DNA of 64,000 nt from a virus. A program made the translations under genes and the position numbers. This document shows positions 7,632-62,866 of the stretch, in pieces. Below the pieces are notes generated by a model, which was given only the letters and a program-made list of their open reading frames with translations, ran no database searches and was not told the origin of the DNA. The stretch covers positions 1-64,000 of the IMG/VR virus record IMGVR_UViG_3300046744_000381; one strand, written 5' to 3'. Position 1 is the stretch's first letter; the number at the start of each line of letters is the position of its first letter.

Positions 7632-7649
7632 GGCAAAATTTAGTATAAT
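7621..7649 (+). promoter_or_regulatory. Sigma70-type promoter for the clamp/dpdA operon
   Basis: TTGACA at 7621-7626 and TATAAT at 7644-7649 are both perfect consensus with a 17-base spacer. The -35 box overlaps the last codons and stop of the dehydrogenase gene. An AGGAG site at 7660-7664 and the ATG at 7671 follow. Confidence 0.88.
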
Positions 7650-7670
7650 ACAACGATACAGGAGAACACT

Positions 7671-20956: not shown

Positions 20957-20985
20957 TTGACATAGATCTAAAGTTATGTTATATT
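20957..20985 (+). promoter_or_regulatory. Sigma70-type promoter for 21020 gene
   Basis: TTGACA at 20957-20962, 17-base spacer ending ATGT (extended -10), TATATT at 20980-20985. The predicted start is near 20992. A GGGCAA region and the ATG at 21020 follow. Confidence 0.82.
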
Positions 20986-21019
20986 AAGTGTATAGGGCAA
21001 AAACACAAAGGGCAATACA

Positions 21020-21420: not shown

Positions 21421-21449
21421 TTGACCTCTATAAGATTTAATGTTATAAT
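21421..21449 (+). promoter_or_regulatory. Sigma70-type promoter of the MoxR-like gene
   Basis: TTGACC at 21421-21426, 17-base spacer ending ATGT, TATAAT at 21444-21449. The leader contains GCACTGATA (21459-21467), also present in the leader of the downstream VWA gene. An AAGGAAA site precedes the ATG at 21488. Confidence 0.85.
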
Positions 21450-21487
21450 AACGTATACGCACTGATACAAATATAAGGAAATACAAA

Positions 21488-29539: not shown

Positions 29540-29568
29540 TTGACATATAACTAAAATAGTGTTATAAT
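29540..29568 (+). promoter_or_regulatory. Consensus promoter giving a leaderless desaturase mRNA
   Basis: TTGACA at 29540-29545, 17-base spacer ending GTGT, TATAAT at 29563-29568: both perfect. The desaturase ATG begins at 29574, five bases after the -10 box, where transcription would start, and no ribosome-binding site is seen. Confidence 0.88.
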
Positions 29569-29573
29569 TTATT

Positions 29574-30191
29574 ATGGTCTTTATTTACGGATATATATGG
29601 TATTTGTTTGCGGCGTTAGTAGGAATAAGTATAGGATATCATAGATACTTTACACACAATACATTTAAAACAAATAGTATTGTAGAAATAATAATGTTAG
29701 TTTTAGGATTAATCTGCGGCGGTCGTAGTGCATTAACTTGGGCTGCTGTTCATCGAATGCATCACGCAAAATCAGATACTTTGCTAGATCCGCATAGCCC
29801 AAAATATCAAGGTGCTTGGAAAGTTTTGACTAGTAATTGGAAAGTAGAATATATACCTCGTAAATATATTACTAATTTATTAAAAAATCCACGTATAGTT
29901 TGGTTTCATAAAAACGGAAAATATTTACACTTATTAATTACACTTATTACAATTATTATAAGTGTAAAATTATTTTTTGTAATTGTTTTTGTTCCGTTTG
30001 TTTTATCTTGGCTGGGCTTCGGAATGTTGAATTATTTTGCCCACAAAGACGGAGAACCGCAAAATATTCCTGTGCTTAATTTAATTGCACCAGGCGAAGG
30101 ATGGCATTTAAACCATCATAAGCAACCGAAATCATATAAATTACACAAATACGATATAGCAGGAGTAGTTATTGAAAGATTTTTTACTTAA
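29574..30191 (+). CDS. Membrane fatty-acid desaturase (Delta9-type)
   Basis: 205 residues, shorter than cellular acyl-lipid desaturases (about 270-300). Three histidine boxes are present: HRYFTH at 23-28, HRMHH at 60-64 and HLNHH at 178-182. Hydrophobic segments lie near 1-20, 38-50 and 117-150. The protein would insert double bonds into membrane acyl chains. Lipid desaturases are known in cyanophages. Transcription is from the consensus promoter immediately upstream, probably leaderless. The overlap with the next gene is 20 bases. Confidence 0.88.
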   Translation: MVFIYGYIWYLFAALVGISIGYHRYFTHNTFKTNSIVEIIMLVLGLICGGRSALTWAAVHRMHHAKSDTLLDPHSPKYQGAWKVLTSNWKVEYIPRKYITNLLKNPRIVWFHKNGKYLHLLITLITIIISVKLFFVIVFVPFVLSWLGFGMLNYFAHKDGEPQNIPVLNLIAPGEGWHLNHHKQPKSYKLHKYDIAGVVIERFFT

Positions 30192-30927
30192 ACAAAGTTT
30201 AGCAATTAGAACTCCAGTCCTGCCAGAAGTAGAAAAAGTTGTGAATTCTGTTACTTTGGATTTACACAGTATCTCTCCTTACAAAACAGATATAATCAAA
30301 TGGTTACGTCCCATTATAAATTTAGAAGGATATAGTGTATATCCTATGAACGGATGTACAGAAGGACTGAACTGGTGGTATAATCAGGAGTACAGAGGTG
30401 TACATATGGAACAAGGTGATTATCAGTGGATTAAACCGACCGATCGATATGGCAAGATAGTATACTTGAGCGTCCCTAGTGCAATTAACGGAAATTATAG
30501 AGAATTACCAATTGATGTTCCAATAGCACTAGATATAGCGTATGTTGGAAGCACTAAGATACAACATATACGCAAATTAGACAATGTTGAGTATGTTTTC
30601 TTTAGTTTGTCAAAAGCGTTCGGTTTACGCAATGTCCGAACAGGTTGGATATTTACAAAAACTCCGGATGAAAGATTAGAATCATTAACACACAGTGCAA
30701 AATATTATAATTATTATGCGCACAATATAGCAGAAAATGTAATAAGTAATTTTGATATTGACTATATACATAGTAAGTTATATAATAAACAAAAAGCAAT
30801 TTGTGAAGAATTAGATTTTGTACCAAGCGATAGTGTGTGGCTTGCTACAACTAAAAATAAAGAATACGCAAAATTTATGCGTGATGGAAAAACAGCAAGA
30901 ATATGCCTTGCAGAAAGTATAAAATGA
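30172..30927 (+). CDS. Miniature PLP aminotransferase-like protein (TTG start)
   Basis: 251 residues, against about 380 for class I/II aminotransferases. The PLP lysine is Lys148 in FFSLSKAFGLRNVRTGW, with Asp121 and Tyr124 (ALDIAYVGS) as cofactor-contacting residues and Arg156. An N-terminal NGCTEGLNWW segment precedes it. The C-terminal small domain is greatly shortened. The start is TTG at 30172 with a good AGGAG site 6 bases upstream; no nearby ATG is as well placed. It overlaps the desaturase by 20 bases and the next gene by 4. Confidence 0.72.
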   Translation: MKDFLLKQSLAIRTPVLPEVEKVVNSVTLDLHSISPYKTDIIKWLRPIINLEGYSVYPMNGCTEGLNWWYNQEYRGVHMEQGDYQWIKPTDRYGKIVYLSVPSAINGNYRELPIDVPIALDIAYVGSTKIQHIRKLDNVEYVFFSLSKAFGLRNVRTGWIFTKTPDERLESLTHSAKYYNYYAHNIAENVISNFDIDYIHSKLYNKQKAICEELDFVPSDSVWLATTKNKEYAKFMRDGKTARICLAESIK

Positions 30928-31535
30928 AGAAACACGATTTACCGACAATTGCCAATTTAGGTTTGGATATTGATTTGCCGAGATTGCAAATGGAATGTGA
31001 TAACCTTGCAGAAAAGTTTATTGATGTAAGAAGTGCTAACCCTATGCTTTGTATGAATCACGAAGAATTAGTTAAAGATGTTTATGACAACTTTGAACAA
31101 ATTAATCTTACAGAACCAAGTGAAATACTGCCGTATGAACCTAGTATTAAAAAGCGTTTACAGCGTAGAGAAGAACACTTGTACAATGTACCAACAGATG
31201 CTTACAATGACAGTTATATCCAAACTATTGTAGAACAATGTAAAGCGCCTGCAAGCCGTGTACGCATCACTAAACTTGCTCCGGGTAAAGAGATACCTTT
31301 TCACGTAGACTACGATGTAGGGTACGCTGTGCGCTGCATATGCCCCATTTATAGTGATAATATGGTAATTAATAAATTTAAACGTAATGGCGAAGTAGAA
31401 GAATACGTGTTAGAAGCAGGTAATGCATACTTTTTAAACATTGGTTATCCTCACGCTGTTTACAATAACAGCGATAAGCCTCGTATTGCATTAATGTTTA
31501 GTTTAGACGGAACTGGCGATTTAGAACATTTATGA
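30924..31535 (+). CDS. 2-oxoglutarate/Fe(II) oxygenase, Asp/Asn hydroxylase-like
   Basis: 203 residues from the ATG at 30924 (ATGA overlap with the previous stop). The facial triad is His127, Asp129 (IPFHVDYD) and His177 (IGYPHAVYN), with Arg187 in the 2-oxoglutarate position (KPRIALMFS). This double-stranded beta-helix pattern matches the aspartyl/asparaginyl beta-hydroxylase-like oxygenases. The substrate is unknown. It overlaps the nucleotidyltransferase gene by 4 bases. Confidence 0.78.
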   Translation: MKKHDLPTIANLGLDIDLPRLQMECDNLAEKFIDVRSANPMLCMNHEELVKDVYDNFEQINLTEPSEILPYEPSIKKRLQRREEHLYNVPTDAYNDSYIQTIVEQCKAPASRVRITKLAPGKEIPFHVDYDVGYAVRCICPIYSDNMVINKFKRNGEVEEYVLEAGNAYFLNIGYPHAVYNNSDKPRIALMFSLDGTGDLEHL

Positions 31536-32170
31536 TAATTGGACTTGTGCCTGTTGGCGGTGATGCAACTAGATTAAACATTCCTTACAGTAAAGCAATG
31601 CTTCCACAAAAAGGGTTTGATTACTACAATCCTGTGATAAATCATTGTGTCCAAAATTTAATCAATACTGGTGTAGATAAAATTATTTTTGGACACGGTT
31701 GTGTCTTTAAACAAGATATACTTGCATATTATCAAAATAATATTTTTTGTCATTTATTAGAACAAAAAGGTCCTAGTGACGGCGGTAATAGATTTATTAA
31801 TAATGTATTTGAAAATTTTCCTGCCAAAGATTTTATTTTTTGCTTACCTGATACTATTACCACCGCTACACATTATAAAGATTTACTAATAAAAGATATT
31901 GTGGTTTGCGGAATGTATGACATTCCAAACTTTACAAAGGCCGACCGTCTTTTGAATAACGGAGAGTTTGATGTTAAAGCTTTAAAAAAGCAAACAAATA
32001 GTAATACAGGTTGGGGTACAATTAAATTTACCAAAACATCTTTACAAAATAAAATAACAAAAGAAATAGGTTGTTGGCTAAATGAACAAAAGTTTCAAAC
32101 AGTAACTAAAGGAAAAATGATAGATATAGGCACGTGGAAAGGCTACAATTATTATTTAAATAAATTTTAA
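31532..32170 (+). CDS. NDP-sugar nucleotidyltransferase-like protein
   Basis: 212 residues. The start IIGLVPVGGDATRLNIPYSK resembles the GGxGTRL...K of sugar-nucleotidyltransferases with a variant loop, and IFCLPDTI fits the metal-Asp strand. KMIDIGTWKGY near the end suits the usual C-terminal region. It would couple NTP to a sugar-1-phosphate. It overlaps the preceding oxygenase by 4 bases and converges with the next gene by 15 bases. It is possibly a glycan building-block enzyme for the island. Confidence 0.75.
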   Translation: MIIGLVPVGGDATRLNIPYSKAMLPQKGFDYYNPVINHCVQNLINTGVDKIIFGHGCVFKQDILAYYQNNIFCHLLEQKGPSDGGNRFINNVFENFPAKDFIFCLPDTITTATHYKDLLIKDIVVCGMYDIPNFTKADRLLNNGEFDVKALKKQTNSNTGWGTIKFTKTSLQNKITKEIGCWLNEQKFQTVTKGKMIDIGTWKGYNYYLNKF

Positions 32171-33217
32171 AGGCTCTATCCATTTGTATAGTGATTTTTT
32201 AGATAGTAAGTATTCTTTATTATATCTCAATGTATCTACATCCAACTCTATCCAATTATTTTGTTTCATCCTTTCGCAAGCACTTGTTATTTCTTTTAGT
32301 AGTAATTGTAATCTTACACTGTGATCTTTTTCAATGTCAAATTGCAAATCAAAATATTTGTCATACAATTTAAATCCCATTTCTTTTAAGTAGTGATTAA
32401 CACCAGGCTGCCCCCAAATTATTATAGGACGTTCATATAACATACTTTTCCATACTTTTTCTGTAATATAAAAACCAAAATCATCAATGCTAGTATCTTG
32501 TACTAAAATAAATTTATATTCAGACAAAAAATTACTAGAACTTTCTGTCCATTTTATTGCTTGGCTATGATTTGTAAAATCTTTTCTATCCATTACAAAA
32601 TCTTTGTTTAACACATTATGTGTATAATCTATTTTGTATTTTTTACATTGTTCTTGCATAGTTATATCGTCAATTTTAGATTGACTTAAATCTACAGGAA
32701 GTTGCCTAGAAACTAATTCGTAATTCATAACATTACGATACTCTCTTGGAAACCTACTAAAAGTAGCAAATTTATCATACTTAATTTTTGATACAACAAC
32801 ACTGCTATTGATAGATTGCGCCATTTGTATAAAAACAGGAAATGGATAAGTTTTAATTTTGTTTTTATACAAGTTACGGTTAAACCAATTAGTATAATTT
32901 TCGTATTCTTTATTTAGATTTGCCGTTAAAAGTATAACATTTAATTCAGGCACCTCATACTTTATACAGTCGTTATGAATTATTTCATATAGTTTTTCTA
33001 TGCCAAAACTTATCCAACTACAATCTAAAATTAATTTAGTTTCTTTGGCTCTTTTTAATTCATCTGATGTTAATTCACAAAACATATCACCATCGTGTTC
33101 CCAAAAATCATTAAGAGATTTACAAACATATTTTTTTAAAAACTGTAAACTGTCTAACCAATCTCGGTTATAACTCAAACCATCTGCTAATATGGTATCA
33201 GGAATAGGATAATTCAT
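32156..33217 (-). CDS. Fucosyltransferase-like (GT10-type) glycosyltransferase
   Basis: 353 residues. The C-terminal region FGFYITEKVWKSMLYERPII, then IWGQPGVNHYLKEMGFK, resembles the donor-binding TEKxxxxxxxxxPIxxG motif of alpha1,3-fucosyltransferases. The rest diverges. A similar TEK motif recurs in the protein at 58878, so they may be distant paralogs. The ATG is at 33217 in the minus strand with a CTAAATA late-type box four bases upstream. It converges with the nucleotidyltransferase. Confidence 0.65.
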   Translation of the reverse strand: MNYPIPDTILADGLSYNRDWLDSLQFLKKYVCKSLNDFWEHDGDMFCELTSDELKRAKETKLILDCSWISFGIEKLYEIIHNDCIKYEVPELNVILLTANLNKEYENYTNWFNRNLYKNKIKTYPFPVFIQMAQSINSSVVVSKIKYDKFATFSRFPREYRNVMNYELVSRQLPVDLSQSKIDDITMQEQCKKYKIDYTHNVLNKDFVMDRKDFTNHSQAIKWTESSSNFLSEYKFILVQDTSIDDFGFYITEKVWKSMLYERPIIIWGQPGVNHYLKEMGFKLYDKYFDLQFDIEKDHSVRLQLLLKEITSACERMKQNNWIELDVDTLRYNKEYLLSKKSLYKWIEPLKFI

Positions 33218-33221
33218 AAAA

Positions 33222-33228
33222 TATTTAG
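33222..33228 (-). promoter_or_regulatory. Late-type box (CTAAATA) for the 33217 gene
   Basis: CTAAATA on the minus strand from 33228 down to 33222, four bases from the ATG at 33217. T4-type late boxes sit about this distance from the transcription start, so the transcript may be leaderless. It abuts the plus-strand promoter of the acetyltransferase gene. Confidence 0.45.
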
Positions 33229-33257
33229 TTGACGTTTGGTTAAATATATGTTATTAT
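33229..33257 (+). promoter_or_regulatory. Sigma70-type promoter, leaderless acetyltransferase gene
   Basis: TTGACG at 33229-33234, 17-base spacer ending ATGT, TATTAT at 33252-33257. The ATG at 33263 follows after exactly five bases, so the mRNA should be leaderless. Confidence 0.82.
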
Positions 33258-33262
33258 GGCAT

Positions 33263-33922
33263 ATGTCAAATGTAGAAACAGATGTAAATTTGGAAATAAA
33301 AGTGTACGAAAACATAAACGTTAGAGAATACAATCCATCTGATAGAGATATAATTGAAAAATTTAGGATGTTAGCTAAACGTGACGGCAATGAAGCACTT
33401 GCCGGCGACAAATACGACCCTGACACAGTAAATGGACAAACTTGGATGACATTTGTAGAGGACGAGCTTGCAAGTGTAAGTGTCGTCGAACGTAGTCATT
33501 ACACAGGAGATCCAAAAATTGCAGGACGTATTTGTAGATATCATATTTTAAAAAAGTTTAGGCATAGTAATGCTGGGTTTCGTATGTTGCCAAATCAAGT
33601 ACAATGGGCAAAGGACAATGGACTAAAAGTATTATACTGGACACACGATGTAAACAACAAAGCATTAAATGCAATGTATCAAGGTAAAAAACGTATGGGT
33701 ATGCGAGGCGAATCTGTTCCGTATTTTATGACCGATACTTACCGTGCATTTAAATTACAACCTGATATGATTTTTAAAGTAAGTGAAAAATCTAACTTTT
33801 TACAATATGTATATGCAAACATATTAGATGAAAATTATGTATGGCGACCAGATTACAAAACTATTTTGTACTGTATGCATAATGGCACTATAGACGATTC
33901 AGTAAAAGCTGCTGTTCTATAG
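33263..33922 (+). CDS. GNAT-like acetyltransferase
   Basis: 219 residues from the ATG at 33263. An upstream in-frame ATG at 33236 lies within the promoter itself and is therefore rejected. The central segment GRICRYHILKKFRHSNAG, then MLPNQVQWAKDNGLKVLYWT, resembles the acetyl-CoA-binding beta-helix region of GNAT acetyltransferases, and NNKALNAMYQGKKR follows the usual C-terminal pattern. The acceptor is unknown. It is transcribed from a promoter divergent to the minus-strand gene at 33217 and converges with the next gene by 35 bases. Confidence 0.7.
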   Translation: MSNVETDVNLEIKVYENINVREYNPSDRDIIEKFRMLAKRDGNEALAGDKYDPDTVNGQTWMTFVEDELASVSVVERSHYTGDPKIAGRICRYHILKKFRHSNAGFRMLPNQVQWAKDNGLKVLYWTHDVNNKALNAMYQGKKRMGMRGESVPYFMTDTYRAFKLQPDMIFKVSEKSNFLQYVYANILDENYVWRPDYKTILYCMHNGTIDDSVKAAVL

Positions 33923-34724
33923 AATCCTTAATGTAATCTGTTATACAAATTTTTTCACCTACGCTATTAAATGCCCACATCCAAATATCAGCAGGTATTA
34001 AATTGTTATCATTACAATATTTTTCTTGTAAGGGTTTTGCTATTTCTGTAATGTATGTTGCACGAAACTTAGGAAGTATAGTTTTTACAACTTCTGATGC
34101 TGTTGTATTAAAATAATTGTAACTATAGTATTGCCCTATTGGTAAAGTTAGAGTTTGTGGAAGGCTATCGGAAAATACAATACCTGCTCTAAAACCGGCC
34201 ATTAAGAAATTTTTACTTAAACTAAATGCAACTGCATCAAACACATCTAAACTAGTATCTAAAGTATCAAGTGTGCATCCATAAAAAGCACAATCTAAAA
34301 ATATTTTACAATTATTAGTTATACAATGATTTATTAAATTACTAAACCAATTAGTAATACCGCCTTCGTGATTAGGCTGACTTACTAATATGTAACTATT
34401 TGGCAAGATATTATCTATATCAGTTGGAGATATACAATAGTTTTTATATGGATCTAGTATACTGTAATAAAATTTATAATCTGTATCAAAATAATAAAAT
34501 TGATCATATTTACTGTGTATGTGAGCACATTGATGAGTTAGTGCCTCGTGTATACCATTACACATTGCCCACTCTTTTTTATTTTCGCAGCCACTAAAAT
34601 TTTTTATCCAGTCCATCCAATGTTTTTTATATAAAGAAACGTCTGTACCAGAACCTTTATTAACAAGATTAATTTTTTTTAATTCGTCTTTTATTGGTTT
34701 AGGACAAAAACTGTACACCGTCAT
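33888..34724 (-). CDS. Second miniature PLP aminotransferase-like protein
   Basis: 278 residues. The PLP lysine is Lys171 in AFSLSKNFLMAGFRAG, with Arg179 after it. Asp144 (KIFLDCAFYG) and Asn118 (VSQPNHEGG) match cofactor-contacting residues. The N-terminal segment is Cys-rich. The C-terminal domain is short, as in the protein at 30172, although the two are not close in sequence. It is coupled to the SGNH gene by an ATGA-type overlap of 4 bases and is the last gene of the long minus-strand operon. Confidence 0.72.
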   Translation of the reverse strand: MTVYSFCPKPIKDELKKINLVNKGSGTDVSLYKKHWMDWIKNFSGCENKKEWAMCNGIHEALTHQCAHIHSKYDQFYYFDTDYKFYYSILDPYKNYCISPTDIDNILPNSYILVSQPNHEGGITNWFSNLINHCITNNCKIFLDCAFYGCTLDTLDTSLDVFDAVAFSLSKNFLMAGFRAGIVFSDSLPQTLTLPIGQYYSYNYFNTTASEVVKTILPKFRATYITEIAKPLQEKYCNDNNLIPADIWMWAFNSVGEKICITDYIKDSIEQQLLLNRL

Positions 34725-35404
34725 ATTATATACTTTCTTTTTGGCAAATCAGGATTAACAAACATAGACAAATCTATATCAAATTTATTATATTCTATAT
34801 AATTATCCAATATGTTGTACATAATTTTATGGTTTGAATTTGTAAAGTGTCCTTTTCTTAGATCTAGTTTTCCTATATTATAATCTGTTTTCCAATATTT
34901 TTGTTCTTTGTCAAAAACATCACACAAGCAAAAATTGTTATCAAAACTGTCTTTAAAACCCGGAATATACAAAATATCTTTACGTAAGTTTTTTATGTAG
35001 TTGAGATATGAAATGTGTTGGAAATTTGAATATTCTGTGTTTTCAATATACTTGTAATAATATAAAGCAGCATCTAATATATCATTCCATCCTTGTTTTG
35101 CAGCATCTTCTTTCCAAAATGTGCTATACTCATAGTTTACAAAGTGTCTAGTCTTATTAGTATCTTTAATTGTTATTCTTCTAGGATGCGTGACTAAAAA
35201 AATAATTTTATCAAATCTCTCGTGTGTTTTTGTAAACTGTTCTGCAGAAAATAAAAGACTAGCACTCCATTCACAAAAGTTTGTTATGTCATATTTTTCA
35301 GAAAGTAATTCCCACCAACTTTGCTTTACAAAAGGATATTGTGAATAGTCTTTTACACCTATAGGGTTTGCACCAAAACTATCACCGTAAATTGCAATTT
35401 TCAT
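34721..35404 (-). CDS. SGNH-hydrolase-like protein
   Basis: 227 residues. The block I motif AIYGDSFGA is at residues 4-12, and GHFTNSNHK near 195 supplies the C-terminal His of the fold. The middle is Tyr-rich. SGNH proteins hydrolyse or transfer acyl groups on lipids and glycans. The overlapping gene upstream encodes another SGNH-like protein, so this is a tandem pair. Activity is inferred only from the motif. Confidence 0.72.
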   Translation of the reverse strand: MKIAIYGDSFGANPIGVKDYSQYPFVKQSWWELLSEKYDITNFCEWSASLLFSAEQFTKTHERFDKIIFLVTHPRRITIKDTNKTRHFVNYEYSTFWKEDAAKQGWNDILDAALYYYKYIENTEYSNFQHISYLNYIKNLRKDILYIPGFKDSFDNNFCLCDVFDKEQKYWKTDYNIGKLDLRKGHFTNSNHKIMYNILDNYIEYNKFDIDLSMFVNPDLPKRKYII

Positions 35405-36140
35405 TTATAACCTCTGCTGCATTTTTGTGTGTTAACTTTCCAAAATGTAAAAAATCTCTTGCATCATCTAATTTAGGAAAAAAATCACACTTTAAAAGAT
35501 TTGCAGTTTCTTCAAAATAACTTGCTTGATAATAATTTGTTTTAGAACTCCAAAAGTGTTCACAAGCTAATGCTTCAAATTTAAAAAATTGTTGAGAATG
35601 AACAAGATTTTTATTCCATATTTTATACAAAACTTTCATATCATTGTTGTAATTATCCCAATGACTGCCAGACCAAGGTCCTATACGATTAATTTTATCA
35701 TCGGCGTAATATAATAATCTACCATAATCTGTCCATAATTGTATCACAGTATGCGGAATTCCAAAATTTTCAAAAAATTTAAGACTATTATGCCAACTAA
35801 AAATTGTGCTGGTGCCGCTTTGTCCAAGATTTATTACAGGTCTTTTTACAATATCACTCAATTGCTGGCAAATAGTTTCTTCAATAGCTAAAGCTTCTCC
35901 AAAGACTTGACTACAACCAAAAATCACAATAGAGTCTTCCCAATTTATGTCATTCCATTCGGCATCTCTATAAAAGTTAGAATTTAACTTGTAAGAAACT
36001 TCTTTATCATAATAATTCCATTGTGATCCTAATTGTGTTTTATTTTTCTCATAATCAGTTCTTTCTTGAATACTAAGATAATCAGGAAGTAAATTTCTAT
36101 TATAATTTTCAGCAAGAGGACCGTTAAGTAATTTATACAA
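35382..36140 (-). CDS. SGNH-like protein, second copy (TTG start)
   Basis: 252 residues. IVIFGCSQVFGEAL is a block I variant with Cys at the serine-adjacent place (GCS), INLGQSGTST gives block II, and DFLHFGKLTHKN supplies the C-terminal His. The start is TTG at 36140 with an AAGGAAA site just upstream; there is no nearby ATG. It overlaps the previous gene in the operon by 8 bases and the following SGNH gene by 23 bases. It probably acts with its partner on one acyl or glycan substrate. Confidence 0.68.
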   Translation of the reverse strand: MYKLLNGPLAENYNRNLLPDYLSIQERTDYEKNKTQLGSQWNYYDKEVSYKLNSNFYRDAEWNDINWEDSIVIFGCSQVFGEALAIEETICQQLSDIVKRPVINLGQSGTSTIFSWHNSLKFFENFGIPHTVIQLWTDYGRLLYYADDKINRIGPWSGSHWDNYNNDMKVLYKIWNKNLVHSQQFFKFEALACEHFWSSKTNYYQASYFEETANLLKCDFFPKLDDARDFLHFGKLTHKNAAEVINENCNLR

Positions 36141-36675
36141 TTAAATTTCCTTTATCATACAAATCTTTTACTACGTCAAAAGTGTAAGGAGGCATAAAAC
36201 ACACACTAAAATTTATTCTAGGATGTTTGCTTTTTGTATTATCCACCCCGTGAGGAATATTTTTAAAAAGAATAGGATCTTTGTACATTACACTTTCAAT
36301 AATAGAACCATTGTGTTTTTGTTTCCAGTCTTGCCAGTCACCTTCAGATCCTTTCCAATCTGGCATATGATAAAAATCCAGTGTATTGTTTTTATAACTT
36401 TCGCTGCAAGGAATTAAAATTGCACAGGTTCTGCCATTGTCAACGTGAGGTGGCAAATACTCTCCTGCTCTACAGGCAACTAATAATCCCATATAACTCC
36501 AGATTGGCAATAATTGATCTTTTAACCATTGAGGTTCATATTGCTTGTAATACTGTACATATCCTCTATTTTCTTCTTCTGGTGCTATTTCTACCCATCC
36601 TGACTTGTCATCAACCACGGCTTTAATCTCATCATAGTCCACATATAGTTCTTTTAAGAAAACATAATTACTCAT
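36133..36675 (-). CDS. 2-oxoglutarate/Fe(II) oxygenase-like protein
   Basis: 180 residues. The facial triad is His77, Asp79 (LPPHVDNG) and His142 (NIPHGVDN), with Arg153 for 2-oxoglutarate. The N-terminal 60 residues form a mostly helical region. It overlaps neighbours by 4-8 bases. The PHxDNGRT block is similar to those of the proteins at 37986 and 36672, indicating a shared subfamily. Confidence 0.78.
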   Translation of the reverse strand: MSNYVFLKELYVDYDEIKAVVDDKSGWVEIAPEEENRGYVQYYKQYEPQWLKDQLLPIWSYMGLLVACRAGEYLPPHVDNGRTCAILIPCSESYKNNTLDFYHMPDWKGSEGDWQDWKQKHNGSIIESVMYKDPILFKNIPHGVDNTKSKHPRINFSVCFMPPYTFDVVKDLYDKGNLIV

Positions 36676-37433
36676 TTTCCTAATACCATTTTTTTAATAT
36701 TACACGTACTATCTAAAATATATTTTATTGCGTTTACAATATCTTTATCGTTGACATTTTGTTTCAAGTCAATACAGGTGTAATTTTCATTATTGCCAAT
36801 AAAGATTATAAATTTATCTCTATGCAAATCAGCAATGTGATTTTTGTCTGTAATAATTATAGTAGCATCGTCTAAATTATCGTGTGTGTCAAAAAACTTT
36901 TGCACCATATCATTATTATAATCTTGTCCAATATTATAATCTTGTTTCCACTTTGATATCAAATCATCGTTGCTAATTATATCTATCATATCGCTATAAG
37001 TCCTGTCAATATGAAACAACAAATTGTACCTAGGTTGATCGGTATAATTTACACCGTTGTGTATACTGTCTGCATTTGTGATAACCGGTGTACTATAATA
37101 ATAATCTACTTCTTTCTCGTCAATTTTAAATTTAATCAAGTGCGGATTAGGATCTATTGGTAAGATTAATGTGGCGCCCCTAGTAAAATCACTGTGCCAT
37201 CCTGTTTCGTGCCCCGGTGGTATATAACTAAAGCTGTATGTGCTTGTGTGTAATAATTTATTTTTTATTTTTATTGCTTCTACATTTAAAGGAAATACTA
37301 TATCTTTGTGTTCACTGAATAAAGTTTTACCTCTATCATTTGAGTATAAAGGCCAGTGGGTTATGCTTTGACAACATTCGTGCAAATATTCTTTGTTATA
37401 TTCAATATCAACTGTGACAATGTAATCATCCAT
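36672..37433 (-). CDS. 2-oxoglutarate oxygenase-like protein with extra C-terminal domain
   Basis: 253 residues. The triad is His80 and Asp82 (GWHSDFTRG) with His125 (DSIHNGVN) and Arg135. The double-stranded beta-helix ends near 145. The last 100 residues form an unrelated alpha/beta domain (DDATIIITDKNHIADLHRD, FIIFIGNNEN), perhaps a Rossmann-like module. Overlaps of 4-8 bases tie it into the operon. This is the only island oxygenase with an appended domain of this kind. Confidence 0.72.
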   Translation of the reverse strand: MDDYIVTVDIEYNKEYLHECCQSITHWPLYSNDRGKTLFSEHKDIVFPLNVEAIKIKNKLLHTSTYSFSYIPPGHETGWHSDFTRGATLILPIDPNPHLIKFKIDEKEVDYYYSTPVITNADSIHNGVNYTDQPRYNLLFHIDRTYSDMIDIISNDDLISKWKQDYNIGQDYNNDMVQKFFDTHDNLDDATIIITDKNHIADLHRDKFIIFIGNNENYTCIDLKQNVNDKDIVNAIKYILDSTCNIKKMVLGK

Positions 37434-37989
37434 TAGTTTTATCCTTTGTTAAAGTAATACTTTCTATACATTCTGGTGCATCAATAATCCATTGTATAAC
37501 ATCGGCAACATATTCTGTATTTAATTTAACTTCGTCAGGATGATATCTATCTACTAAAGGAGTATGCATATGTCCTAAACTGATATATGTACATTTTACA
37601 TTAGGAGTGATATCTTCTCTATTGTGATTAATTGTTTCACATAATCTTTGTAATGCTAATTTTTCAGCACCATAACTAATATATTTTAACCAAGGTTGCT
37701 CTTTATTAATGTGATCACTTATACTACCTATACAAATTAAATGCACAGTCTTTTTATTAGCTTCAAATAATTCATACAACATATGTAATAATCTAACTTG
37801 ACTATAATTATTCATTTTTTCTGTGTAACAATTTAGTATTATCACATCATAGTGAATTGCAACGTGACAAAATTTTATCATTCCTTCATCAGTTGATAAA
37901 TCGTAATTATTAGTTCTACTTGCATAACTGGTATTTTTTATAGCACTTGCTAATCCATATTCGGCATTTCCTGTGGTTAAAATTTTCAT
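37426..37989 (-). CDS. Small SDR-like protein
   Basis: 187 residues. A YxxxK active-site pair appears as YISYGAEKLAL near residues 88-98, and an ICIGSISDH strand supplies the usual Ser. The N-terminal glycine-rich motif is weak (TTGNAEYGLASA). One of three short SDR-like genes in the island (also 42081 and 48785). It probably oxidises or reduces a carbonyl or alcohol. It overlaps neighbours by 4-8 bases. Confidence 0.65.
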   Translation of the reverse strand: MKILTTGNAEYGLASAIKNTSYASRTNNYDLSTDEGMIKFCHVAIHYDVIILNCYTEKMNNYSQVRLLHMLYELFEANKKTVHLICIGSISDHINKEQPWLKYISYGAEKLALQRLCETINHNREDITPNVKCTYISLGHMHTPLVDRYHPDEVKLNTEYVADVIQWIIDAPECIESITLTKDKTNG

Positions 37990-38432
37990 TGTTTTGCTGC
38001 CTGTATTGTTAGACTTAATCTATGAGATTCAATTTCACTAATATCGTGCGGTACATCAACTTGAAGACGATGCCAAGTGGATATTGGTGCTGTAATTTCA
38101 TATATAATATTTTCCATATTGTCGTCATACCATCTTGTTTTGACATCCGGTCCTCCAGATAAAAGTGTGTAATTATAGCAAAACGTTCTGCCTTGATCAA
38201 TATGGGGAGTAAGTTGCCTGCCTGAAAGTTGGTAATATACTTCTACAGGATAATTAAAATAAGGTTGTAAAAAATCTTGTAATTCATTATCTACTTTGGT
38301 TGAAAAATACCACCAATCCCATTCACCGCTATCATCGAAAGCATTAGGTCTTTTATACAACTCCTCTATATCTGTAATTACTAAATTTTTAGGAATTGAT
38401 GGTATAAAATTAGATAATTCAAATAACTTCAT
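37986..38432 (-). CDS. 2-oxoglutarate/Fe(II) oxygenase-like protein
   Basis: 148 residues from the ATG at 38432, which has an AAGGA site; an in-frame ATG at 38453 lies inside the SET gene without one. The triad is His77, Asp79 (LTPHIDQG) with His121 or His129, and Arg138. It is a near-minimal double-stranded beta-helix with no extra domain. The first 14 bases overlap the end of the SET gene. Confidence 0.72.
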   Translation of the reverse strand: MKLFELSNFIPSIPKNLVITDIEELYKRPNAFDDSGEWDWWYFSTKVDNELQDFLQPYFNYPVEVYYQLSGRQLTPHIDQGRTFCYNYTLLSGGPDVKTRWYDDNMENIIYEITAPISTWHRLQVDVPHDISEIESHRLSLTIQAAKQ

Positions 38433-38910
38433 CGGATTTCCTTTTTTGTGCATACCAACTCAATGGCAATTTTAAAAATTTGTAATCTTCGCCTGTTACT
38501 TTTCCTCGGCAGTTACTACTACCGCATTTACATTCAGGAATATAATCTTTCTTAGTAAGCATAAATGTACCATAATCAACTGTTACAAATTCTCCTTGCT
38601 CTATATTTCTCAAAGCTCTAAAAACCACTTGACCGTCAATATACAAATTTGGATCACAACTGTGATTTATATATGCTTCGTACTCATTTCCTTGTGGTAA
38701 ATCAATAACAAGATCTTTATCTATTAGCAATCCTTTATACCATCCTTGCTCGCTAGGACGTCTAGCCATACCTCCTATTACAAAGATAATATCTCCTTTT
38801 TCAATTTGGTTTGTAGCATAACGACACAACCCGTGGACAGGACTTTCTTTTACTGCTGTATCACTATTAAAATAACAAAACCCAGTGTGCTGTTTATTCG
38901 AATCTATCAC
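38419..38910 (-). CDS. SET-domain protein (GTG start)
   Basis: 163 residues. NHSCDPN at 82-88 and VDYGTF at 111-116 are SET motifs (the SAM-binding NHS and the catalytic Tyr). CKCGSSNCRG near 127-136 is a post-SET zinc cluster, with Cys85 as the likely fourth ligand. SET proteins methylate lysines. They are common in eukaryotes and rare in phages. The GTG at 38910 has an AAGGA site. The target is unknown: a host or phage protein would be conceivable. It overlaps both neighbours by 14-17 bases. Confidence 0.85.
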   Translation of the reverse strand: MIDSNKQHTGFCYFNSDTAVKESPVHGLCRYATNQIEKGDIIFVIGGMARRPSEQGWYKGLLIDKDLVIDLPQGNEYEAYINHSCDPNLYIDGQVVFRALRNIEQGEFVTVDYGTFMLTKKDYIPECKCGSSNCRGKVTGEDYKFLKLPLSWYAQKRKSDEVI

Positions 38911-39442
38911 CGTGTAATTCCTTCAAATACGGATTACTATAATTTTCTCTTTCGTTAGCATTGTTAAAAATAAGATGTATTCGTGGTTCGTGATCGCCAT
39001 TTACAAAATTGTGCAATTGGTGAGTATCTGTCCAATATATTTTTCCTTTGGGCATATAGGCAACAAATGGAATGTCAGGAAAAACCATAAACGATAATTT
39101 AGAATTATTTATTATAGGAATATGATATCTAGTGTACAAATCAACGTGTGTGCTGTAACAACTTCGTTCGTGTAGAAACATAAGTCTTGCACTTGCTACA
39201 GTAAAGTCTAAAGTTGTTAAGACCTGTTTTAAATAGGTACCTTCTAAGTGAGGGTGAAAATTAATACATTTGTGTTCTATTCTAGTTTTGCCATATGCAT
39301 CTACATCGTCGTGCCAAGATATTTTAGAAGAATATTGTAAACAAATTTGACAATTATTCCATCCTACTAGGTCAATAATATTATTGCATTCTTTTGCTAT
39401 TAATTTATGATTAATTTCTTTTATTTCTTTAAAAGCCTGCAT
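38894..39442 (-). CDS. Asp/Asn hydroxylase-like 2-oxoglutarate oxygenase
   Basis: 182 residues. The triad is His99, Asp101 (CYSTHVDLY) and His144 (THQLHNFVNG), with Arg154 (EPRIHLIF). RYHIPI following the first His suits the aspartyl/asparaginyl hydroxylase family. It overlaps neighbours by 1-17 bases in the minus-strand operon. The substrate is unknown. Confidence 0.75.
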   Translation of the reverse strand: MQAFKEIKEINHKLIAKECNNIIDLVGWNNCQICLQYSSKISWHDDVDAYGKTRIEHKCINFHPHLEGTYLKQVLTTLDFTVASARLMFLHERSCYSTHVDLYTRYHIPIINNSKLSFMVFPDIPFVAYMPKGKIYWTDTHQLHNFVNGDHEPRIHLIFNNANERENYSNPYLKELHGDRFE

Positions 39443-40101
39443 TATTGGTTTACCTTTCCTTTAAATCTTAAAGATAAACCAATTTTATATTTTGCTAACA
39501 TTTTTCCTGTAGCGTGTATATACTTACTATTAAAAATTAATAAGTTTCCAGGTTTATAATTTAAGGCTTGACCAGTTAATCCAAAAAACAATTCCTTTGG
39601 ACGAAAATTATTTTCTAAAGACGTGCAATACAAATTATCGTCTATTTCACAATTGGTACATCCTTGTACAGTAATGTCATCGTTTATTGATGTTTTTATA
39701 CTTTTGTTTTTATGAAACTCTGTATCGGTATCATTTAGCATCCAAGTTCTAGCTTGTTTGTCACTGCACCATTGATCAAAAACTACAAAAGGTTGATAGT
39801 TATCGCCTTCTACAAATAACGGTATTAGAACATTTATTGTATCGTGAATTCTATCTGCATCAGTATGAGGAAAATATGCATACGAATGCTTGTAAATATT
39901 ATCACCTAAGTTATAAGAAGTGTCTATGTTAAATTCAGTTAATATACTTTCAAGTTGTCGCACTACTTCAAATTCCCACGGATTGTTTATCTTTTCCATA
40001 TAATTAGAATTTACAACAAGATTTTGGTTTTCGTAAAAAAAATTTAAAATTTCTTTTCTTATTCCAAGAGGTATAACATCTTCGTATTCTTTATAGTGCA
40101 T
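39442..40101 (-). CDS. 2-oxoglutarate/Fe(II) oxygenase-like protein (MHYK-type)
   Basis: 219 residues. His79 and Asp81 (YFPHTDADR) plus His196 (KYIHATGKM) form the likely triad, with a basic residue in KIGLSLRF. It is a clear paralog of the protein at 42617: both begin MHYKxYEDV and share the LGDNIYKHxxxYFPHxD and GLSLRFKG blocks. An insertion with several Cys (VQGCTNCEIDDNLYC) is distinctive. The stop and the next start are separated by 3 bases. Confidence 0.75.
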   Translation of the reverse strand: MHYKEYEDVIPLGIRKEILNFFYENQNLVVNSNYMEKINNPWEFEVVRQLESILTEFNIDTSYNLGDNIYKHSYAYFPHTDADRIHDTINVLIPLFVEGDNYQPFVVFDQWCSDKQARTWMLNDTDTEFHKNKSIKTSINDDITVQGCTNCEIDDNLYCTSLENNFRPKELFFGLTGQALNYKPGNLLIFNSKYIHATGKMLAKYKIGLSLRFKGKVNQ

Positions 40102-40104
40102 ATA

Positions 40105-40755
40105 TTATTTTATGACATCAACTTCTATATCCTGCTTGATTTTGGAAGGAAACATAAATCCAGTTTGATGATGTTCTCTTCTATTTTTTGTGCTGTCTTT
40201 AAATCCAATACCCATCATTAATGCAATAGGATTTTCATTTTTTACAATTTTAGAAACTTCTGTGTCGTCAAAACACGCACAACACCCAGTACCATAACCT
40301 AACATACTTGCTAATAAATTAAGATATCCCGCAGCAATGCCAATTGCCATATTTTCATCTCTTTTTAGTACATTTTTAGAAGCAGTAATATCTTTGTTAT
40401 TTTCAATATTATACAACTCGTCATTTGCATATTCATTAGGATTAGTTTTTGTTGCTGGATCAACTGATTCAAAAACTACTAAAAGATTTGCTAGTGTTTG
40501 ACTATTTGTTTCTTCAACACCGTCTTCTGGGCGTTTGAATCCTGCTGTATGTTTGTGTATATTTTCGATAATGCTTCTATTTGTTACAAAGTGTACTTTG
40601 TAAAAAGCAACGTTTTGTTTGCTAGGACAGTTCTTAACTGCGTGTACAAACAATTCTATATCTTCGTCAGGAATAGTTTGCTCTAAATCCCAGTTACGTT
40701 GACAATGCTGACTACGAATAATAGTCTTTTTAATATCTTTGTGTTCTAATTGCAT
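40105..40755 (-). CDS. Nitroreductase-family flavoprotein, copy 1
   Basis: 216 residues. RSQHCQRNWD at 14-23 is the FMN-phosphate-binding start (R-S region), NCPSKQNVAFYKVHF supplies the next conserved block, and GYGTGCCACFD near 155-165 is the C-terminal flavin region. Nitroreductases use NAD(P)H and FMN to reduce nitro, quinone, or C=C groups, or serve in dehydrogenations. A paralog with the same motifs lies at 45777. A late-type box at 40774-40780 and an AGGAG site precede it. Confidence 0.8.
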   Translation of the reverse strand: MQLEHKDIKKTIIRSQHCQRNWDLEQTIPDEDIELFVHAVKNCPSKQNVAFYKVHFVTNRSIIENIHKHTAGFKRPEDGVEETNSQTLANLLVVFESVDPATKTNPNEYANDELYNIENNKDITASKNVLKRDENMAIGIAAGYLNLLASMLGYGTGCCACFDDTEVSKIVKNENPIALMMGIGFKDSTKNRREHHQTGFMFPSKIKQDIEVDVIK

Positions 40756-40766
40756 AATACATCTCC

Positions 40767-41525
40767 TTAAATATATTTATGCAATTTAGGATCATTAAAA
40801 TTAACTAGAGCTAAAATATGATATCTGTCGTCACCGTTTTTATTATTTACTGCGTGATTGTGTTGTGTATTGATTATCCAGGCTTCATTAAAACCATAGT
40901 GTTGCTCGTGTATTTCTCCGTCTAAATATACTAACATACTAGTAGCATCCTTATTTGTGATTAAAGGAATATGCACATATGCGTGAGTGTATTCTGTTTC
41001 ATAATAATTATGACTGTGCCAATTTATTCTTTGTTTATTATCTATTTTCGATATCATTATACGATCGCACATAGTCCAAGTAAACATTTCTTCAATGATA
41101 CTTTTAATATAAGGAATAGTGTCACATAAAGTTGTGTCAACTAGATGCTCAGGAGGAACCCTGCCATTTTCAATTAAGTGCTGCTTACCTAATATTTCCA
41201 TAAAGTCTAATGTTTCTCCAAATCCAAAATCTGGATCATTGCTGAAATTTCTTAAAAACTTTGCACTCCAATAATTACTAATACCTGCGCCTCGTATGCT
41301 TTTTACATCGTTGTTGTAACCTTGCCAATTTTCTAATGCAGATATTTCTTGACTTATCTTGTTTTGATTTAACTCTAAATCGCATAATTTAAAATGTGGC
41401 ACATATAATAATTTTTTAGCCAGTGAATTTTTTGCTCTATTGCTTTCACATCTAGGATGACAGGATTTATCAAAAGCCGGAGCAGATTCTGCATCTACTA
41501 ATTTATGATGTAAATCAACTATCAA
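40767..41525 (-). CDS. Asp/Asn hydroxylase-like protein with an HxH in place of HxD
   Basis: 252 residues. The usual HxD is replaced by His170-x-His172 (NWHSHNYYETE); His224 (QHNHAVNN) and Arg234 complete the site. Aspartyl/asparaginyl hydroxylases tolerate a missing Asp, so it may still bind iron. A CHPRCESN stretch near 22-29 suggests an additional Cys pair. The start is TTG at 41525; no nearby ATG exists. The start overlaps the next gene upstream by 11 bases. Confidence 0.65.
   Translation of the reverse strand: MIVDLHHKLVDAESAPAFDKSCHPRCESNRAKNSLAKKLLYVPHFKLCDLELNQNKISQEISALENWQGYNNDVKSIRGAGISNYWSAKFLRNFSNDPDFGFGETLDFMEILGKQHLIENGRVPPEHLVDTTLCDTIPYIKSIIEEMFTWTMCDRIMISKIDNKQRINWHSHNYYETEYTHAYVHIPLITNKDATSMLVYLDGEIHEQHYGFNEAWIINTQHNHAVNNKNGDDRYHILALVNFNDPKLHKYI
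40774..40780 (-). promoter_or_regulatory. Late-type box before nitroreductase copy 1
   Basis: ATAAATA on the minus strand (40780 to 40774), about 19 bases from the nitroreductase ATG at 40755, with AGGAG between. It lies in the last codons of the gene upstream. Confidence 0.55.
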
Positions 41526-42084
41526 GGATACAGCCTACTAAGTGTATTCTATTTTCTTTACTGGCATTCATAGCAGTATGCTCGTATCTTGTATCTGTAT
41601 GATACCATTTATTTTTTTCTAAATGTTTTACTTCGTCTCCAATAATCATAAAACAGCCATCTTGTGTTTTCATTGGATAATGTATCCTAGTTGTATTATC
41701 ATTATGCCAGGTTAAACAAGTCTTTGGCTGACTATTCATTATTCTTACTCTGCCAACATTGAATTTTTTTGTAAGAGCATTGTAAACTTCTTCAAACAAT
41801 GTGCCTTTAAATGCTGTGCAAAGTGTAGTAAACTGTTGTTCACGTAACGGTGGTTTACGTAAAGGAGTAATTATTTTACCATCTTCTTCGTATGATTTAT
41901 CCCAATCATACCACAAACTTGCCCTGCCTAATAAAAAATTATCTGGATCTTTTTTGGTGCTGTTCAAACAAATTTGATCCTGACAATCGTCTCGAAACCA
42001 ATGTATGGTTCCGTTATCCATTAACTTATTAAATTCATCATATAATTCAAGAATAGGTAAATCTAATTCTGTATAATAACTCAT
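41515..42084 (-). CDS. Asp/Asn hydroxylase-like 2-oxoglutarate oxygenase
   Basis: 189 residues. The triad is His127 and Asp129 (LTWHNDNTT), His169 (RYEHTAMN), with Arg179 (ENRIHLVG). An N-terminal helical part carries a KPPLREQQFTT segment. It overlaps neighbours by 4-11 bases. Together with the proteins at 38894 and 40767 it forms a hydroxylase subgroup. Confidence 0.75.
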   Translation of the reverse strand: MSYYTELDLPILELYDEFNKLMDNGTIHWFRDDCQDQICLNSTKKDPDNFLLGRASLWYDWDKSYEEDGKIITPLRKPPLREQQFTTLCTAFKGTLFEEVYNALTKKFNVGRVRIMNSQPKTCLTWHNDNTTRIHYPMKTQDGCFMIIGDEVKHLEKNKWYHTDTRYEHTAMNASKENRIHLVGCILDS

Positions 42085-42620
42085 TGCTCTCTCGGTAAAA
42101 TTGTCATTGTTTTTACATTATATTTATTAGCCAACTCTGATGCCTGAAAAATAATTTGTGCTGCTTCTTGGCAGGGAATATAGTATTGTGGTTGTAAAAA
42201 TTTAAGTATTTTTTCAGATCCTACATACCCAAATTTTAGTAACACAGTGGAACAGTGGCACTTGATACTACTTAATTGTAAACTTGCTGCTTCTAAGCTT
42301 GCTTTGTGAGCTGTATACGGATGCGGAAAGTCTTTCATACCGTCAGTGGTATTGCTACCTAAATTAACAATTACTTTTGTTTTATTTTTCCACTTTCGAT
42401 GTAATTCATACAGCATATCAGTTTGATAATAAAGATTATATGCATTGTTGATAAACACATCGCACTCTTCGCTGTCTTTTATAATACGTCTGCGGTCCTC
42501 TGCTAATTTTATATTATAACCTGTGGTCCTACTAAACCCTATAAAATTATCTTTTACTTCGGGCAATTCACTAAAAGCTTTGCCTATACCTGACGTATGT
42601 CCTGTGATTGCATATTTCAT
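42081..42620 (-). CDS. Small SDR dehydrogenase/reductase
   Basis: 179 residues. The Rossmann motif TGHTSGIGKA is at 6-15, NNAYN at about 58-62, the Ser of the triad at VNLGSNT, and Tyr-x3-Lys as HPYTAHKASLEAA. It is about 60 residues shorter than typical SDRs, and similar in size to the other two island SDR-like proteins. It overlaps neighbours by 4 bases. An alcohol or carbonyl redox step on the island's unknown product is likely. Confidence 0.75.
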   Translation of the reverse strand: MKYAITGHTSGIGKAFSELPEVKDNFIGFSRTTGYNIKLAEDRRRIIKDSEECDVFINNAYNLYYQTDMLYELHRKWKNKTKVIVNLGSNTTDGMKDFPHPYTAHKASLEAASLQLSSIKCHCSTVLLKFGYVGSEKILKFLQPQYYIPCQEAAQIIFQASELANKYNVKTMTILPREQ

Positions 42621-43294
42621 TTTACTTCCTTGTCAAACTCGCCTTTAAATCTTAGACTCAAGCCCATTTTCCAATCACAATCCATTCTACCAGTACAATG
42701 AATATGTTTGCTATCAAAAATTATTAAACTACCAGGAGTAAAATCAACAGCAATACCTGATAAATTTTTAAACAATAATCTATCTCGACCACGTGCTTCC
42801 AAACACCTAGTAAACATTTCTTCATCTATATCAACATCAGTTTTATTTTCTACTATGCTATCTTTAAACGGAAATCTACGTTTTTTATTATGTTCAAACT
42901 CTGATGCAGCAGCATACCATTTGCCCATCCAAGTTGCACCACTGCTAAAATCATTTATATATTGATCAAATATACAAAACTTTTGTTCTAAATCATTGTG
43001 TACTTTTAAAGGAATAAGAACATTAAAACAAGGATAATCTATACTTGTATCACAATGTGGAAAATATGGATCATTGTGTTTGTAAATATTATCGCCTATA
43101 TTCTCTAAATTGGTATTGAAGTAATTTGATAAAACAGGTTTTATATTCTCTTGTACAATAGATAAATTCCAAGGATCTTCAATTTTGTACATTCCATTTG
43201 TTAAATGTGTATCTGCAAATCTATTATTGTAAAATTCAACTATAGTATCTATTCTAGTTTGATCAAAAACATCTTCGTAAATCTTATAATGCAT
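42617..43294 (-). CDS. 2-oxoglutarate/Fe(II) oxygenase-like protein (MHYK-type paralog)
   Basis: 225 residues from the ATG at 43294, matching the MHYK start of its paralog at 39442; an in-frame start at 43327 adds 11 residues that lie inside the radical SAM gene. His80 and Asp82 (YFPHCDTS) plus the distal KHIHCTGRM His form the triad. The C-terminal GLSLRFKG agrees with the paralog. Gene order between the two copies is oxygenase, SDR, hydroxylase. Confidence 0.75.
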   Translation of the reverse strand: MHYKIYEDVFDQTRIDTIVEFYNNRFADTHLTNGMYKIEDPWNLSIVQENIKPVLSNYFNTNLENIGDNIYKHNDPYFPHCDTSIDYPCFNVLIPLKVHNDLEQKFCIFDQYINDFSSGATWMGKWYAAASEFEHNKKRRFPFKDSIVENKTDVDIDEEMFTRCLEARGRDRLLFKNLSGIAVDFTPGSLIIFDSKHIHCTGRMDCDWKMGLSLRFKGEFDKEVK

Positions 43295-44405
43295 CTGATT
43301 TTCTTTTAGGAATTTTGCTATCTGCACTACTTACACAACTTTCTGTCATACAAGGCATTGGTTTATCAAATAACTTAAATCCTGTTTCTATGTTGCCAAG
43401 CGGAACATCGTGGCAAGAGTAACTACGTTTAACACTGCCATCTGGTTCACGTATGATTATACCTTGGTATCCAGCATTGCAACTCCAGCCTTTAAATTTG
43501 TTGAAGTTGAAAGCATTAAAACGTTCAGCTTGATCCATATACCAAGCTTGTCCTTTTGAATCTCTAAATTCTACTTGCATATGCCAAGGCACACTAGCAT
43601 CGGGCTTATACATACTATCCTTAGGTATTTCAAATTTGGGCTTAGGTCTGTCTACAAATTTTCTTTTAGATTCTGTGTAGGCTCGCTGTGGCATTCCGTT
43701 CCACAAACGTTTTAGGTCTTTTTCTTTGTATCCTTCAACCACCTTGCTCGCAGTAGGATCGGATTGCGGTTTAAGGGTAACGTTGATTCCTTGGTTGTGA
43801 AAGAAGAGAGCATTCTCCCAATCACGTTCAAACCATTCTGGTACCATAACTTGATTAATTGTAACTTGTACATCGTGCTCCTGACAAAAAATTAACTTGT
43901 CTGCAAATTCTTGCATCTTCTCTTTGCTATTAACGTGTTCTGTGTGCAGACTTGCTGTTATACTTGCTCTGTGAAAAGCTTTAGCATATTCAACATATGT
44001 TTCAAACCACTTCATTGGACGTGAACAGTTACTTGTCATATGTACACTGGTGTAGTTTGTGTTGTCTACGTCATCAGCCAGATGTTGTAAAATGTCCAAG
44101 TAGCCAGGGTGAAAAGTAGGCTCACCACCACTAAGACTAAAATGATAACTATTAAATCCGTTTTCACGTGCTTGCCTCTTTATCTCATCTATGGTCCGTA
44201 AGCATAGTTCTGTAGGACGGTGGTCTTTACGGTCACTGCGGGCATAAGGCCAACAATAACTACATCTGTAGTTGCAGAATCTTCCGAGGAGCCAACTAAC
44301 AGTGAATATGTCACGATACAACAGGGTACGCTGACCGACACTAACAATGTCGTCAAAAGGTATCTTAGTAAAATCATAGTTACTCCACTTTAAGTCTTCA
44401 GTCAT
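43284..44405 (-). CDS. Radical SAM protein, group C (first gene of long operon)
   Basis: 373 residues. The CX3CX2C motif is Cys44, Cys48 and Cys51 (RFCNYRCSYC), and the SAM motif is SGGEP at 92-96. Additional cysteines (FKGWSCNAGYQG, YSCHDV, CMTESCVSS) in the C-terminal third could bind extra Fe-S clusters. It belongs with the protein at 49323, which shares GR.CNY.CSYC and FKGWSC. It is the first gene after the consensus promoter at 44411 and is probably leaderless. The downstream oxygenase overlaps by 11 bases. Confidence 0.88.
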   Translation of the reverse strand: MTEDLKWSNYDFTKIPFDDIVSVGQRTLLYRDIFTVSWLLGRFCNYRCSYCWPYARSDRKDHRPTELCLRTIDEIKRQARENGFNSYHFSLSGGEPTFHPGYLDILQHLADDVDNTNYTSVHMTSNCSRPMKWFETYVEYAKAFHRASITASLHTEHVNSKEKMQEFADKLIFCQEHDVQVTINQVMVPEWFERDWENALFFHNQGINVTLKPQSDPTASKVVEGYKEKDLKRLWNGMPQRAYTESKRKFVDRPKPKFEIPKDSMYKPDASVPWHMQVEFRDSKGQAWYMDQAERFNAFNFNKFKGWSCNAGYQGIIIREPDGSVKRSYSCHDVPLGNIETGFKLFDKPMPCMTESCVSSADSKIPKRKSDAL

Positions 44406-44410
44406 AACTT

Positions 44411-44439
44411 ATTATAACACTCCTTAATTTATTTGTCAA
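44411..44439 (-). promoter_or_regulatory. Consensus promoter of the long minus-strand operon
   Basis: On the minus strand TTGACA (44439 to 44434), 17-base spacer ending GTGT, and TATAAT (44416 to 44411). The ATG starts at 44405, five bases after the -10 box. It overlaps the end of the radical SAM gene at 44429 and would drive all genes down to 33888. Confidence 0.88.
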
Positions 44440-55063: not shown

Positions 55064-55083
55064 AATATGCGCACTTTACTTAG

Positions 55084-55098
55084 CTAAATATATTTATG
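55084..55098. promoter_or_regulatory. Overlapping divergent late-type boxes
   Basis: CTAAATA at 55084-55090 (plus) is followed by a five-base gap and the ATG of the radical SAM gene at 55096. On the minus strand, CATAAATA runs from 55098 to 55091 towards the gene at 55063. Both resemble T4 late boxes, and the plus-strand one would give a leaderless transcript. Confidence 0.5.
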
Positions 55099-62831: not shown

Positions 62832-62837
62832 ACATTA

Positions 62838-62866
62838 ATTATACTAAGAAAAACTAATCTTGTCAA
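62838..62866 (-). promoter_or_regulatory. Consensus promoter of the 62831 operon
   Basis: TTGACA (62866 to 62861) and TATAAT (62843 to 62838) on the minus strand, 17-base spacer. The ATG at 62831 follows after six bases, so the mRNA is leaderless or nearly so. Confidence 0.85.

Follow-up and report, generated by a model that had tools for sequence, protein, structure and literature searches.

The window, by which we mean the whole stretch of 64,000 nucleotides analysed, corresponds to the initial 64 kb of an IMG/VR virus record with 136,876 bp and a GC content of 34.6%. Judged from its sequence, the record is a marine phage of the T4-superfamily, of myovirus type. Its gp23-type capsid protein has up to 70% identity with those of jumbo phages, its gp43-type DNA polymerase has 50% identity to that of Sinorhizobium phage Phosso, and a gp55-type late sigma gene is found at 102257-103081. 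The closest cultured relatives have 287-490 kb, so this record is possibly a fragment.

A cargo island occupies the window from about 29.5 to 62.8 kb, with desaturase, acetyltransferase, radical-SAM, twitch-radical-SAM and sugar-nucleotide genes. The island (29574-62831) encodes at least five radical-SAM proteins, with two confident twitch-domain members (44429-45757 and 55096-56301), as well as a UDP-sugar dehydrogenase and many proteins without Pfam match. The cargo units have their own promoters and lack terminators of their own, so they do not qualify as morons; we found no terminator-like site at the unit ends and 3 in the region, vs 6.5 in shuffled sequences. Regarding base composition, the tetranucleotide CATG was observed 0 times in the whole 136,876-bp record vs 373 expected, which looks like the total avoidance of a restriction site. 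CGCG is also scarce (12 vs 74 expected) and most of the remaining 4-base palindromes are near expectation. CATG is likewise low in the closest relative, L029 (4 vs 23), and near normal in the others.

Promoters abutting start codons in the cargo island

Four genes of the island have a strong sigma70-type promoter directly next to their ATG:

29540-29573, + strand: sigma70-type promoter TTGACA-N17(TGt)-TATAAT followed by TTATT, abutting ATG 29574; kept in the 91%-identical relative L021.
29574-30191, + strand: fatty-acid desaturase-like gene (Pfam PF00487, E 5.6e-11), putative leaderless start; the gene opens a 4-gene unit (29574-32170).
33229-33262, + strand: sigma70-type promoter TTGACG-N17(TGt)-TATTAT followed by GGCAT, abutting ATG 33263; kept in L441 (94% identity) but not in L442 or L443.
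33263-33922, + strand: GNAT acetyltransferase gene (Pfam PF00583, E 1.8e-4), putative leaderless start.
44406-44439, - strand: sigma70-type promoter TTGACA-N17(TGt)-TATAAT followed by AAGTT, abutting ATG 44405; geometry found in 39 of 54 dereplicated homologues.
43284-44405, - strand: radical-SAM gene (Pfam PF04055, E 1.5e-14; 232 IMG/VR relatives), putative leaderless start; the gene opens a long unit that extends to 33888.
62832-62866, - strand: sigma70-type promoter TTGACA-N17-TATAAT followed by TAATGT (N6), abutting ATG 62831; N6 kept in homologues of 54-81% identity.
61191-62831, - strand: gene of the 'MYDI' family (no Pfam or NCBIfam match; family also in relatives), putative leaderless start; the gene opens a unit that extends to 56289.

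The first-pass annotation had placed the ATG five bases past TATAAT or TATTAT at 29574, 33263 and 44405, had noted a difference of one base at 62831, and had found no ribosome-binding site between promoter and ATG at any of the four. Reading the letters directly, we found all of this as described, with N6 instead of N5 at 62831. The -35 boxes had not been mentioned; TTGAC[A/G] lies at exactly 17 bp in all four sites, and three of them (29574, 33263 and 44405) have an extended -10 (TGn). The spacer of the 44405 promoter contains AAGGAG, which ends 14 nt from the ATG and is outside the predicted transcript. The exact pattern TTGAC-N18-TATWAT-N5-ATG occurs 3 times in the window, vs 0.01 expected from dinucleotide shuffles.

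Bacterial TA-led leaderless genes have a -10-like box around 10 bp before the start codon and no Shine-Dalgarno (SD) site (Zheng et al. 2011, PMC3160421). The phage sites have the same geometry: the second-position A of the -10 box is at -10 (N5) or -11 (N6), within the allowed 8-14 nt upstream, no SD is within reach, there being merely 5-6 nt after the -10 box, and the start codon is ATG at all sites. Nevertheless, TA-led genes were defined on cellular genomes and with sigma70-type boxes, whereas our cases are phages and involve T4-type late boxes too.

Five other strong intergenic sigma70-type promoters of the same genome (before 2137, 7671, 21020, 21488 and the late-sigma gene at 102257) are followed by the ATG only after 20-38 nt, with SD-like sites. 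Those within the window are:

2083-2136, + strand: TTGACA-N17-TATTAT, leader and AAGGAG before ATG 2137.
7621-7670, + strand: TTGACA-N17-TATAAT, leader and AGGAG before ATG 7671.
20957-21019, + strand: TTGACA-N17-TATATT, leader and AAGGG before ATG 21020.
21421-21487, + strand: TTGACC-N17-TATAAT, leader and AAGGA before ATG 21488.

All four leaderless strong sigma70-type starts are at cargo genes and at the first genes of units, vs the five leadered ones (Fisher p = 1/126). Apparent promoter matches within coding sequence were set aside, namely 10744 of this genome and those of L116, L133 and L136.

Late-type boxes next to the ATG

Two operon starts of the island, 33217 and 55096, lie next to late-type boxes, both of which are CTAAATA variants and not NATAAATA:

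33218-33228, - strand: late-type box CTAAATA followed by TTTT, 4 nt before ATG 33217; weaker candidate.
32156-33217, - strand: gene without Pfam match, candidate late leaderless start, divergent from 33263.
55084-55095, + strand: late-type box CTAAATA followed by TATTT (N5), abutting ATG 55096; homologues have (T/A/C)ATAAATA-N5-ATG.
55096-56301, + strand: twitch-domain radical-SAM gene (NCBIfam NF033640, E 3.3e-74), putative late leaderless start.

Both elements of T4-type late transcription, the mapped boxes and a gp55-type late sigma, are present in this genome. The T4 late box spans -13 to -6, and therefore +1 would fall on the A of the ATG. The late box of the divergent start 55063/55096 (55083-55098) is near-palindromic, with CATAAATATATTTATG in some homologues, so that one sequence can serve both strands as late promoter.

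In the loci examined, the distance from NATAAATA to the ATG was bimodal: we found 23 cases at d=5, 4 at d=4 and 0 at d=6, the others being mostly at 16-31 nt, and two control octamers had no distance peak. Several of the d=5 cases stem from the search with the twitch-radical-SAM gene and the rest are independent of it. Over whole records the excess of the late-box pattern was smaller (67 vs 22 mirror matches).

The cultured SAR11 phage HTVC008M also encodes a gp55-type late sigma. Its TATAAATA-N5-ATG sites were annotated starts in 5 out of 5 cases, and 12 annotated starts lie exactly 5 nt after a box (9 NATAAATA and 3 CTAAATA), among them those of tape measure, tube cap, head closure, DNA end protector, baseplate, tail completion and csgF genes. 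The leadered late-box genes of this phage mostly have GGAG-like sites. Its DNA polymerase and primase genes (NC_020484; 97061 and 118253) have strong sigma70-type promoters 11-12 nt before the ATG and no SD, which suggests very short leaders of around 5 nt.

The same box is the late promoter of T4 and cyanophages (PMC2984593); for pelagimyophages, a survey reported that the prediction of late promoters failed (PMC7029224). Here the box is exactly 5 nt from the ATG at many genes, whereas T4, S-PM2 and P-SSM2 have TATAAATA-N5-ATG once at most. Our search of open-access papers gave no account of late genes being leaderless in T4-type phages, and the ATG-abutting geometry shared by putative T4-type late promoters would be what is new here.

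Conservation in homologues and occurrence in other phages

We read 80 of the 232 IMG/VR relatives of the radical-SAM gene, and 54 upstream regions remained once near-identical ones were removed. A promoter scoring at least 10/12 was located 5, 6 or 7 nt before the ATG in 39 of them (23, 15 and 1 respectively), and at any other distance within d=0-65 in only 1; about a quarter of the homologues lack this promoter. The flanks from -100 to -46 had a mean identity of 28.9%, that is, random level. The genes had mean identities of 85% in protein and 53% at third positions, vs 38% in the first 11 spacer bases, which indicates that the hexamers and their distance are kept while the rest drifts. Furthermore, gene pairs that are 90-92% identical in DNA had unrelated flanks and partly different spacers with the same hexamers and geometry, and the crossover in these pairs may lie within the promoter itself. 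Distant homologues of the desaturase (L022-L028) and the acetyltransferase (L442 and L443) lacked the promoter, therefore strong conservation is limited to the radical-SAM, MYDI and twitch-radical-SAM families.

As for the spacers, that of the radical-SAM promoter (44417-44433) and those of its homologues often have AAAGGTGn right before the -10 box, that is, an extended -10 with extra G's, and in L091 the same AAGGTG is 7 nt from the ATG, an SD-like position. The radical-SAM gene had no match in annotated phages. A bacterial origin was rejected, as the gene was found in just two MAG contigs, with the geometry at neither start.

In 50 records bearing the radical-SAM gene, the promoter-ATG pattern had 52 matches vs 1 for the reversed pattern, and around 22 of the 52 were in other gene families. 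Perfect promoters in such records formed two modes, 45 at d=5-7 without SD and 46 at d of at least 13, of which 37 had SD-like sites. Because the records were chosen by their radical-SAM gene, the share of 37% at 5-6 nt is too high, although the other families remain. Among extended promoters of general IMG/VR records, an ATG followed at d=5-6 in 4 out of 96 cases, and the cultured jumbo relatives, HTVC008M, T4, S-PM2 and P-SSM2 had 0 or 1 sigma70-type sites each; thus, the geometry is not general. The densest case that we found was L231 (IMGVR_UViG_3300023235_000155, 21.8 kb), with four TTGACA-N17-TATAAT-N5/6-ATG starts in 13.7 kb. A link with phage-encoded ribosomal protein bS21 was discarded: there is none in this genome, which is possibly a fragment, only 2 of 28 wild records have it, and it is also found in cultured jumbo phages without the geometry, so there is no correlation.

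The first-pass annotation had taken the geometry for an expression style of cargo genes, perhaps early in infection. For the strong sigma70-type promoters of this genome the cargo part holds, but in relatives replication and virion genes share the geometry. A cargo-only rule fails on the primase-like and helicase-like genes of relatives, on early replication genes of wild phages, namely thymidylate-synthase-, DNA-ligase- and clamp-loader-like ones (identities judged by eye from sequence), and on the virion genes of HTVC008M, and these genes point to a lineage-wide initiation mode instead of a cargo code. Early timing fits the sigma70-type set only, as the parallel set uses T4-type late promoters.

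Probable leaderless initiation and its meaning

In our opinion these junctions are most probably promoter-to-start-codon fusions that give leaderless mRNAs and are kept by selection (probability around 0.86), and the comparisons strongly support the leaderless transcription proposed before. Host RNA polymerase (sigma70 type), or polymerase with the phage late sigma, would bind the promoter, and transcription would begin at the A of the start codon, 5-6 nt downstream of the -10 or late box. Ribosomes, presumably 70S, would then read the 5'-AUG without SD, in a host that we assume to be able to translate leaderless mRNA. Since other promoters of the same phage have leaders and SD sites, the initiation mode appears to be a choice per gene, kept by selection. 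The sigma70-type set would act early, and the benefit might be compactness, the gene unit needing around 35 bp of control DNA and working in any context. At 44405, transcripts with a leader could also arise by read-through from upstream genes.

Of 40 radical-SAM promoters, 38 have a pyrimidine immediately before the ATG. In a second count, whose loci overlap with that set, there was a pyrimidine at -1 in 28 of 29 leaderless starts vs 50 of 150 SD-led starts (p = 6e-11), as would be expected for transcription starting at A. When ATG was replaced by GTG or TTG the pattern had 7 matches, vs 52 with ATG, in largely the same 50 records. The early coding regions are also less structured (mean -2.8 vs -4.9 kcal/mol), and low structure is common at gene starts.

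An unlikely alternative is that the mRNAs are near-leaderless, with very short leaders (1-4 nt) or multiple start positions. The choice of start by RNA polymerase spans several positions, N5 and N6 forms are found alongside a few N7 ones, and N5 puts the A 6 nt past the -10 hexamer, one below the textbook optimum, so transcription starts within the AUG are possible. Nevertheless, the distances are sharply 5-6 nt for sigma70-type promoters, late boxes nearly always have 5 nt, and the pyrimidine is what is found at -1 of a start site. It is very improbable that translation actually begins further downstream, at a codon preceded by a separate ribosome-binding site, the promoter-proximal ATG being part of a normal leader. 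The start codons are predictions, but the radical-SAM proteins are almost invariant from residue 3 onward in 41 homologues, an SD-preceded later start within 40 codons was found in only 2 of the 41, and the same Met is used by the homologues without promoter. The genome is AT-rich and compact, its intergenic gaps are short and promoter-like strings are frequent in it (122 vs 97 in shuffles), but a chance juxtaposition is practically excluded by the excess of exact matches in the window and in relatives and by the conservation of the geometry between unrelated flanks.

Most of the leaderless genes known from phages are single repressor genes. In lambda cI and in PY54 cI and cro, the leaderless mRNAs of PY54 having been shown by RACE, the phage promoter is likewise placed so that the mRNA begins at the AUG (PMC4488713); those cases concern individual repressors in temperate phages, whereas here many genes of T4-superfamily marine phages, including diverged relatives, and two promoter classes are affected. 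Large leaderless sets have been reported in Alphaproteobacteria, with 375 genes in Caulobacter, whose translation is as efficient as that of leadered genes, and 171 in S. meliloti (PMC4117421). The likeness is in the size of the sets, although these are host genes.

If the fusions are leaderless, there would be a conserved leaderless programme with two promoter classes in abundant uncultured marine phages and, at virion genes, in a cultured SAR11 phage, HTVC008M, where being cultured makes it directly testable. Standard gene callers and promoter scans could then misread many starts and operons, translation mode would be a layer of phage gene control, and late boxes 5 nt from the ATG may explain why late-promoter prediction failed in the pelagimyophage survey (PMC7029224). 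More tentatively, and we regard this as rather doubtful, a large group of marine T4-superfamily phages might have in this fusion a dedicated module for expression, with early and late promoters, which would serve as a standard junction for cargo swapping and set a second translation mode that the phage makes use of in infection.
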